Made by a program: the position numbers and the translations under genes
Assembly: GCA_030158185.1 (NCBI GenBank)
Contig: JAOATP010000145.1
Span: forward strand, 1 to 33,349
DNA from: Propionicimonas sp.
GTDB taxonomy: Bacteria > Actinomycetota > Actinomycetes > Propionibacteriales > Propionibacteriaceae
DNA length: 33,349 bases
Direction of reading: 5' to 3'
Notes under the pieces: generated by a model
What the model saw: only the letters and a program-made list of their open reading frames with translations
Told to the model about the DNA's origin: nothing
Database searches by the model: none
In this document: one piece after another, positions 24,986 through 27,367 of the stretch
How positions within the stretch are numbered: position 1 is the stretch's first letter
Layout: each line of letters opens with the position of its first letter

Positions 24986-25017
24986 CCCTGTCGTACAGGG
25001 TTTGGACGCCCTATGGT
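24986..25017 (+). promoter_or_regulatory. Palindrome and possible promoter of the MFS leader RNA
   Basis: CCCTGT-CGT-ACAGGG (24986-25000) is a perfect palindrome with 6-bp arms. It covers the expected -35 region (TGTCGT) 17 bp before TATGGT (25012-25017). This layout fits a TetR-type operator, but the promoter is only a prediction. Confidence 0.4.
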
Positions 25018-25022
25018 GAAAT

Positions 25023-25281
25023 ACACCAAGGGGGAGGCACCTGCCCAGCGGGTAGCCCGACCGAGTCCGCAGCACAACCGGGGGGACGTGCGCGGGACAA
25101 CTCAAGGCGACGGACCGAGCCGGCACAACGGCATGCGCGACTGGCCTCAAGCGCCAGGACCCGGATCGGATGTCGCAGAGGTCCCAGGACTCGCGGGCTG
25201 CCTGATGGCAGTCTCCGGAGTGATCGGTCGCGGGGTGGGGGCTTCGCACCGATGAGAGTAACGATCGGGGAGCCAAGGTGT
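25023..25281 (+). ncRNA. Putative structured leader RNA upstream of the MFS gene
   Basis: The 479-bp gap between the GNAT and MFS genes contains no convincing gene. ACACC (25023-25027) can pair with GGTGT (25277-25281) to close a domain. Inside it are hairpins CTGGC/GCCAG (25141-25157), GGACC/GGTCC (25157-25184), CTGCC-TGAT-GGCAG (25198-25211) and ATCGGT/ACCGAT (25223-25253). Two direct repeats (GACCGAGTCCGCAGCACAAC at 25059, GACCGAGCCGGCACAAC at 25113) lie in the first half. A strong terminator follows directly. I could match it to no riboswitch, T-box, tmRNA, RNase P RNA or SRP RNA. A short ORF (25013-25255) overlaps it and might be a leader peptide, but lacks a good ribosome binding site. 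Confidence 0.5.
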
Positions 25282-25282
25282 T

Positions 25283-25325
25283 GCCGGCCCGGAATATCTC
25301 CGGGCCGGCTTTCCTTCTTGTTGTG
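25283..25325 (+). terminator. Strong intrinsic terminator (attenuator) ahead of the MFS gene
   Basis: GCCGGCCCGGA (25283-25293) pairs perfectly with TCCGGGCCGGC (25299-25309) around ATATC. The U-rich tail TTTCCTTCTTGTTGTG follows. It lies 70 bp before the MFS start codon on the same strand, so transcripts from upstream must read through it. Confidence 0.88.
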
Positions 25326-25395: not shown

Positions 25396-26880
25396 ATGGC
25401 ACACACCGAAACCGCACCTGTGGGATCGCCGTCCGTCACCCCGTCACGCCCCGACAAGCTGCCGGCCCAGTCGATCCGCGTCCTCACGGTGCTGCTCATC
25501 GGTGCATTCGTGGTCATCCTGAACGAGACGGCGCTGAACGTCGCGCTCTCGCGCATCATGGTCGACCTCAGCATCGACGAGCGCACGGCGCAGTGGCTGA
25601 CCACCGGCTTCATGCTGACCATGGCCGTGGTGATCCCGATCACCGGCTGGATCATGGAACGACTGCCGACCCGGGCGGTGTTCACGCTCGCCATGTCGCT
25701 GTTCAGTGCCGGCACCCTGCTGGCAGCCCTCGGCTGGGGCTTCCCCAGCCTGCTGGCCGGCAGGCTCGTGCAGGCCAGCGGCACGGCGATCATGATGCCG
25801 CTGCTGATGACAACCGTCATGGAGCTGGTGCCGCCGGGTGCGCGCGGACGGGTGATGGGCACGATCAGCCTCGTCATCTCCGCGGCCCCTGCGATCGGCC
25901 CCACCGTCTCCGGCCTGATCCTGCAGTTCCTGCCGTGGCGCTTCGTCTTCGTCCTCGTCCTGCCGATCGCGCTGGCCATCCTCGTCGTCGGGCTGCGCCA
26001 GGTGCCCAACCTCAACGAGCCCGTGATGGTGAAATTGGATGCCGTCAGCGTCCCGCTCGCCGGGTTCGGGTTCGGCGGTCTCGTGTACGGGCTCAGCCTC
26101 ATCGGGAGCCCCACCGCCGGCTGGGGGGTGGAGATCGCCCTCGCCATCGGCACGGTCTCACTCGGCCTGTTCATCTGGCGGCAACTCGTGCTGCAGCGCA
26201 CCGACTCCGCGCTGCTCGACCTGCGCACCTTCAGCTACCCGATCTTCACGACGGCGATCGGGGTGATGGGCCTCGCCATGGCAGGGCTGTTCGGCACGAT
26301 CATCGCCCTGCCGCTGATCCTGCAGCAGGTGATGCACGCCGAGCCCCTCTACGTCGGGCTGCTGCTCCTGCCCGGTGCGCTGCTGACCGGGTTGCTCGGT
26401 CCGGTGGTCGGGCGCCTCTACGACCGCGTCGGCCCGCGATGGCTGGTCGTCCCCGGATCGGTGGCCGTCGGCGTCGGGTTCGTGCTGTTCGCCCAGGTGG
26501 CCGTGACGACGCCCTGGTGGTGGCTGCTGATCGCCCACCTGTGCCTGAGCCTCGGGCTGGCGTTCATGTTCACCCCGCTGTTCACGATCTCGCTCGGCGC
26601 CCTGCCCCCGTACCTGTACAGCCATGGCTCCGCCGTGGTGGGCACGGTGCAGCAGGTGGCCGGCGCAGCGGGCACGGCACTGTTCGTCACGGTGATGTCG
26701 ACCGTCGCTGCCGGCCAGCCCGCGGGAACGAGTGCAGAGGTCGCCCTCGCCACGGGCGCCCGCACCTCGTTCATGACCGTCGGCGCGATCTGGGTGGCAG
26801 CGATCGTCGCGTCGTTCTTCCTGAGCAAGCCGGAGGAGACCGTCCCGGCCCATGAGGTTGTGCCCGCCGCGCACGCGTAG
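25396..26880 (+). CDS. DHA2-family MFS transporter (drug efflux type)
   Basis: The product has 494 residues with about 14 transmembrane helices, as in the EmrB/QacA (DHA2) family of proton-driven exporters. Helix 1 has LNETALNVALSRIM and helix 2 TTGFMLTMAVVIPITGWI. Motif A is GWIMERLPTRAVF; motif C lies in ISAAPAIGPTVSGLIL. FFLSKPEE ends the last helix. The substrate cannot be inferred. The ATG at 25396 has GGAAG upstream; the track ORF begins far upstream, through the leader and terminator. Expression is probably controlled by the structured leader and attenuator. The TAG stop codon is part of the -10 element of the following Nudix gene. Confidence 0.93.
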   Translation: MAHTETAPVGSPSVTPSRPDKLPAQSIRVLTVLLIGAFVVILNETALNVALSRIMVDLSIDERTAQWLTTGFMLTMAVVIPITGWIMERLPTRAVFTLAMSLFSAGTLLAALGWGFPSLLAGRLVQASGTAIMMPLLMTTVMELVPPGARGRVMGTISLVISAAPAIGPTVSGLILQFLPWRFVFVLVLPIALAILVVGLRQVPNLNEPVMVKLDAVSVPLAGFGFGGLVYGLSLIGSPTAGWGVEIALAIGTVSLGLFIWRQLVLQRTDSALLDLRTFSYPIFTTAIGVMGLAMAGLFGTIIALPLILQQVMHAEPLYVGLLLLPGALLTGLLGPVVGRLYDRVGPRWLVVPGSVAVGVGFVLFAQVAVTTPWWWLLIAHLCLSLGLAFMFTPLFTISLGALPPYLYSHGSAVVGTVQQVAGAAGTALFVTVMSTVAAGQPAGTSAEVALATGARTSFMTVGAIWVAAIVASFFLSKPEETVPAHEVVPAAHA

Positions 26881-26890: not shown

Positions 26891-27367
26891 GTGCCGACAC
26901 CCGAGTTCATCCTTGCCCTCCGCGAGAAGGTCGGGGCGACCCGACTGTGGCTGTCCGGCGCGACGGCGGTCGTCATCCGTCCCGGTGTGGACGGTGAGGA
27001 GGTACTGCTGGTGCGCCGCGCGGACAACGGCGAATGGACGCCGGTGGCCGGCATCGTCGATCCCGGTGAGCACCCGCACCTCACCGCCGTCCGCGAAGTT
27101 GCCGAGGAGGCCGGCGTCACCGCCGTCGTCGAACGACTGGTGTGGCTGACGGTCACGGAAGTGATCACCTACGACAACGGGGACGAGACCCAGTACATCG
27201 ACCACGTGTTCCGCTGCTCCTGGGCCGGCGGAGACCCGCACCCGGTGGACGGGGAGGCGAGCGAGGCGGCGTTCTTCCCTGTCGACGCCATGCCGGCGAT
27301 GTCGCCCCGGCACGTCGAGCAGGTGCGCGTTGCGCTGGCGAACGAGCCGGAGGCCCGCTTCGGCTGA
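26891..27367 (+). CDS. Nudix hydrolase
   Basis: The product has 158 residues. The Nudix box is GIVDPGEHPHLTAVREVAEE, followed by AGV, and fits Gx5Ex7REUxEExGU with all acidic metal ligands kept. TAVVIRPG and EVLLVRRADNGEWTPV precede it in the usual order. These cytoplasmic enzymes hydrolyse nucleoside diphosphates linked to another group; the substrate here is unknown. The tail EASEAAFFPVDAMPAMSPRHVEQV is common in ADP-ribose pyrophosphatase-like members. The GTG at 26891 is preferred because of the leaderless -10. The track start (26852) lies inside the MFS gene. Confidence 0.92.
   Translation: MPTPEFILALREKVGATRLWLSGATAVVIRPGVDGEEVLLVRRADNGEWTPVAGIVDPGEHPHLTAVREVAEEAGVTAVVERLVWLTVTEVITYDNGDETQYIDHVFRCSWAGGDPHPVDGEASEAAFFPVDAMPAMSPRHVEQVRVALANEPEARFG

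Follow-up and report, generated by a model that had tools for sequence, protein, structure and literature searches.

We have discovered a conserved, structured leader directly 5' of a DHA2-family exporter gene and its neighboring NUDIX hydrolase gene in Propionicimonas sp. The leader lies in the window, a term that denotes here the whole 33,349-nt stretch of DNA that was analysed (assembly GCA_030158185.1, contig JAOATP010000145.1, positions 1-33,349, forward strand). Six further species of the genus carry this domain, each as a single copy immediately 5' of the same exporter-NUDIX pair, and the helices P1, P2 and P3 of the domain are backed by compensatory change in the leaders of those species. 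We judge it likely that this exporter-NUDIX 5' leader is a so far undescribed cis-regulatory RNA, in which the state of a three-way junction sets whether transcription terminates at a hairpin or reads through, the likely signal being a pump-linked compound bound in the manner of a riboswitch.

From 5' to 3', the leader in the window consists of a -10 box, a three-way-junction domain of ~187 nt (25025-25211), and then a variable linker that leads to a terminator-like hairpin (25283-25309). Its parts and the genes that follow it are:

25012-25017, + strand: -10 promoter-like box TATGGT, with a predicted transcript start at about 25023-25025
25030-25037, + strand: unpaired G-rich segment GGGGGAGG 5' of P1, G-rich in all seven leaders
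25041-25045, + strand: 5' strand of helix P1a, CTGCC (partner 25207-25211)
25050-25057, + strand: 5' strand of helix P1b, GGGTAGCC (partner 25196-25203)
25062-25068, + strand: 5' strand of helix P1c, CGAGTCC (partner 25187-25193)
25072-25091, + strand: hairpin P2, GCAC/GTGC, with the conserved G-rich loop AACCGGGGGGAC
25094-25185, + strand: long arm P3, its base GGGAC (25094-25098) paired with GTCCC (25181-25185)
25139-25150, + strand: conserved apical segment of P3, GACTGGCCTCAA, with GACTGGC in six of seven leaders
25187-25211, + strand: 3' strands of P1 closing the domain (P1c 25187-25193, P1b 25196-25203, P1a 25207-25211)
25212-25282, + strand: variable linker with further G-rich-loop hairpin(s)
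25283-25320, + strand: terminator-like hairpin GCCGGCCCGGA/TCCGGGCCGGC with the tail TTTCCTTCTTG
25396-26880, + strand: DHA2-family efflux MFS transporter, EmrB/LmrB-like (TIGR00711, PF07690)
26891-27367, + strand: NUDIX hydrolase (PF00293), directly 3' of the exporter

For the region 25018-25325, terminator hairpin included, the predicted folding energy was -161.6 kcal/mol, a z score of -4.9 relative to dinucleotide shuffles; the score was still -3.5 once the terminator hairpin had been removed, and in neither case did any shuffle fold as well. Together with the homologous leaders in six other species, this confirms the structured leader 5' of the DHA2 exporter that a first-pass annotation of this DNA had proposed. 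That annotation had also described a closing helix with four internal hairpins and two direct repeats. The closing helix and internal helices are present, but the picture of four equal hairpins is replaced by a single three-way junction (P1/P2/P3) with a variable 3' segment, and the repeats were not borne out, as a search of the domain for direct repeats of at least 9 nt returned none. The -10 box is kept in all seven leaders as TATGGT, TACGAT or TACGGT followed by GAAWT; no good -35 consensus was found 5' of it in the window leader. Downstream, the exporter MFS scored 277.3 bits against TIGR00711, above the curated cut-off of 230.2, and the LmrB model scores best for it but below threshold. 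The NUDIX gene probably starts at GTG 26891, close to the onset of conservation, with ATG 26852 as the alternative start of the ORF.

A DNA search of 199 genomes of the family identified three congeneric relatives matching parts of the leader, mainly the 5' head and the terminator, and the set was enlarged to seven by means of a sequence model of the head followed by a search for the MFS gene. All seven leaders (the window, L008, L004, L005, L092, L093 and L124) belong to one genus, and at least one of the genomes, that of L008, is a metagenome assembly. The exporters of the six relatives are 78-83% identical to the window MFS. Each of the seven exporters has a NUDIX gene 3' of it, with 74-85% identity for the NUDIX genes of the six relatives. 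The gene 5' of the leader varies, a GNAT gene being matched in five of the seven. Since the NUDIX gene is kept throughout while the 5' neighbor varies, the leader travels with the exporter. Scored against a covariance model of the domain, the seven leaders reached 125-158 bits, values that are not independent evidence because those leaders built the model. Twelve other congeneric exporter orthologues (64-70% identical) lack the leader according to models R1 and R2 and by inspection, and model R2 returned nothing convincing outside the genus in two 397-genome samples, one from the order and one from the phylum; its best match there (24.6 bits) contained mismatched pairs, lacked a G-rich head and was put down to chance. 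A mobile origin was rejected after plasmid and phage records gave no matches.

Several features were seen at other exporter loci. The NUDIX gene also adjoins the exporter in L134. A tandem array of ~33-bp units (GTGAACCATCGGGGACAGGTACTTCGGTTCACC) lies 5' of the exporter at roughly 1100-1330 of L126, and related units (CACCGGGGACGGTTCC and CACCGGAACCGTCCCC) occur in L125 and L127. The exporter gene of L129 (G154:C3:7953-9401) contains one in-frame TGA, indicating a pseudogene or an assembly error.

The domain is near constant in length (176-187 nt in all seven leaders) despite its sequence divergence. The unpaired G-rich head has the consensus AGGGGGAGG, its core being GGGGGAGG in five leaders, GGGGGATG in L092 and GGGAACG in L124. 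Helix P1a changes from CTGCC/GGCAG to CCGCC/GGCGG and ACGCC/GGCGT among relatives. P1b (consensus GGGTAGCC/GGCTACCY; GGATAGCC/GGCTATCC in L005) is paired in 100% of cells in an alignment not fitted to structure, and in the hand alignment GGG changes to GGA together with CCC to TCC. P1c is variable, with two-sided changes at three pairs over the seven species. The consensus of P2 is a GCAC/GTGC stem with the loop AACYGGGGGG; in L092 and L124 the stem is GTAC/GTAC and the G-rich loop is conserved. The base of P3 (consensus GGGAAC/GTTCCC) changes on both sides in relatives, and the arm is divergent in sequence but kept in length.

In a MAFFT alignment not fitted to structure, 87.4% of cells were paired, compared with 26-47% when the partners were slid by 1-3 columns; shuffling the 3' letters of this alignment reached the observed pairing in 24 of 500 trials, which makes it only a modest control. 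Pair counts on the first MAFFT alignments understate P2 and P3, because P2 was misplaced in several rows. A structural alignment made by hand gave 97% of cells paired and two-sided compensatory changes at 10 of 29 pairs, with none of 2000 shuffles pairing as highly, although this alignment leans towards the structure because it was made with the structure in view. Departures from Watson-Crick pairing included 12 G-U cells against a single A-C cell, a variation that fits only an RNA read from the + strand. The domain folded better than shuffles in six of the seven leaders (z -2.0 to -4.2), the exception being L005 (z -0.15).

Conserved, covarying RNA structure thus stands directly 5' of one gene family, as is generally asked of a cis-regulatory leader, and it is common to the homologous MFS genes within the clade. 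The first-pass annotation had assigned this structure to no known RNA class, and cmscan of the window against Rfam 15 agreed, with no match at the gathering threshold; the best sub-threshold match reached 20.7 bits against a cut-off of 45 and spans the terminator hairpin. Scans of the L092 and L004 leaders were likewise without an Rfam match. The layout of a riboswitch or antibiotic-sensing attenuator, which that annotation held would fall if a known class emerged or if homologous MFS genes shared no conserved leader, is supported as a cis-regulatory attenuator layout, since neither was the case.

The terminator-like hairpin lies between the domain and the start codon, where an expression platform is expected, and its core is kept in all seven leaders. 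Its stem (25283-25309) is a perfect 11-bp helix, the sole perfect inverted repeat reported for the leader, and is followed by the tail TTTCCTTCTT. It had been described as a strong terminator 70 bp before the MFS start; the placement holds, but the spacing is 76-86 nt and the T tail is mixed. The tails are T-poor in L092, L093 and L124, so that intrinsic termination is uncertain there. The possibility that the hairpin is a dispersed repeat was rejected, as it is single-copy in the genome. The distance from P1 to the terminator ranges over ~70-230 nt among relatives, as would be expected if a sensor is followed by a linker that is free to evolve, although folding is good in the linker as well. 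The linkers of L004 (1699-1900) and L008 (2657-2890) carry several more P2-like G-rich-loop hairpins, the number of which differs between species.

No antiterminator pairing common to all seven leaders was found. Folds of truncated transcripts gave partners for the left arm of the terminator that differ between species; pairing of the P2 loop with that arm was inconsistent among the leaders, and the 5' G-rich strand and the terminator tail pair strongly in some species, without conservation across the set. RNAalifold predictions on a realigned set suggest, as a lead only, that the G-rich loop of P2 is a possible competitor for the P3 3' strand, which would offer a way of coupling the loop to the junction.

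It is hypothesized that transcription would proceed from a vegetative-type promoter, starting just after the -10 box, and that the nascent RNA would fold into the three-way junction, with its conserved unpaired G-rich and loop segments, as a sensor. The state of the junction would then decide whether the hairpin ends transcription or RNA polymerase reads into the exporter gene, and the pump is probably under the control of an RNA switch of this kind. A drug or metabolite may be sensed, the likely signal being a compound linked to the export substrate of the pump that would bind directly, as in a riboswitch.

The G-rich segments could instead be sites for an antiterminator or stabilising RNA-binding protein that controls read-through or stability in place of a small molecule. 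Conservation within the leader is indeed highest in G-rich loops and single strands of simple sequence (AACYGGGGGG, GGGGGAGG), and the extra G-rich-loop hairpins of the variable linker would fit repeated binding sites for a protein. A closed three-way junction that is nearly constant in size and has a long arm and a conserved apical segment looks more like a folded sensor, however, and no gene for such a regulator was identified adjoining the locus; we regard control by a protein as rather unlikely. Lower still do we rate the prospect that the leader is an independent small RNA (sRNA) gene, with its 3' end at the hairpin and only an incidental position 5' of the exporter. Its own -10 box, its terminator-like hairpin and its size of 285-440 nt would suit an sRNA, but the same gene lies directly 3' in all seven species though the gene on the other side varies, the gap from hairpin to start codon is only 76-86 nt in the window, and the leader is confined to a clade whose exporters are without a SigR-like promoter.

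An 80-codon ORF (25013-25255) overlaps the domain and had left open a leader-peptide mechanism, in which a ribosome stalled on this or another upstream ORF would govern attenuation; attenuation does control resistance genes in other bacteria, e.g. vmlR (PMC9226507). The ORF begins at ATG 25013, however, within the TATGGT box (25012-25017) and before the likely transcript start, and its product has no protein family match. From the same start, the reading frame runs for 39 codons in L008 and L005, the other four relatives have no equivalent ORF, and no upstream ORF keeps a conserved frame across the seven leaders. With an ORF that is unconserved and starts within the -10 box, the leader-peptide option is unsupported and very unlikely. 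The idea that the leader is G+C-rich DNA that folds by chance, its hairpin having no part in regulation, deserves almost no credence: the domain is ~71% G+C and L005 shows no folding excess, but covariation, pairing far above the slid controls, the constant domain length and the single locus per genome speak against it.

Exporter orthologues outside the leader clade point to a different mode of control. The consensus of SigH/SigR-type promoters is gGGAAta ... GTTgaa (PMC10012870), and the motif GGGAAT-N17-20-GTT was found within 320 nt 5' of the exporter start, on the coding strand only, in 7 of the 12 leaderless congeneric orthologues. It was also found in 26 of 79 other exporter orthologues (genome contig scan), again on the coding strand only, and in none of the seven leader loci; elsewhere in the loci, taken as control, its rate was about 0.0015 per 330 nt. 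Such motifs lie ~100-260 nt before the MFS start in L125, L127, L129, L130, L131, L132, L135 and many of L009-L087. These promoter sequences suggest that the DHA2 exporter may commonly belong to a thiol/oxidative stress regulon. Exporter genes with a leader group on a single branch of the exporter tree (support 100/99), sister to the congeneric group that holds the SigR-like promoters. As judged from the promoter motifs, the most parsimonious view is that control by a redox-type sigma factor would be ancestral and that the leader would have taken its place in a single event. Compared with control by SigR/SigH (an ECF sigma factor) in other Actinobacteria, identified by motif only, the exporter gene is orthologous, whereas the leader clade lacks the motif and has a TANNNT box and a structured leader. 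Most likely, then, the leader is a riboswitch-like attenuator specific to this lineage, in which it supplanted sigma-factor control. The more specific proposal, that it is a new riboswitch class of one Propionibacteriaceae genus which senses a toxic compound or antibiotic exported by the DHA2 pump and which took over from ancestral ECF (SigR/SigH) control, is put forward tentatively, as a possibility that we would not favor outright.

The MDR-NUDIX RNA motif accompanies genes for multidrug exporters and NUDIX proteins, a pairing that the leader locus shares, and is known only from another phylum. It was not matched by the leader in cmscan of all Rfam 15, a result that is telling only if Rfam 15 holds the motif. 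Riboswitches that control exporters exist, e.g. the guanidine classes (PMC7736828), with which the leader shares a structured 5' region before an exporter and a terminator-like hairpin as a possible expression platform; it differs in having no Rfam family match, another architecture and a distribution confined to one genus. Resistance-gene attenuators with upstream ORFs (vmlR, whiB7) similarly combine a leader and a terminator-like hairpin before a resistance-type gene, but the window leader has no conserved upstream ORF.

An orphan regulatory RNA with covariation support hereby joins the small set tied to multidrug-type exporters. Within one genus, regulation of one and the same gene seems to have shifted from transcription initiation, under a redox-type sigma factor, to an RNA leader. 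A ligand, if found, would point to the physiological substrate of the exporter-NUDIX pair.
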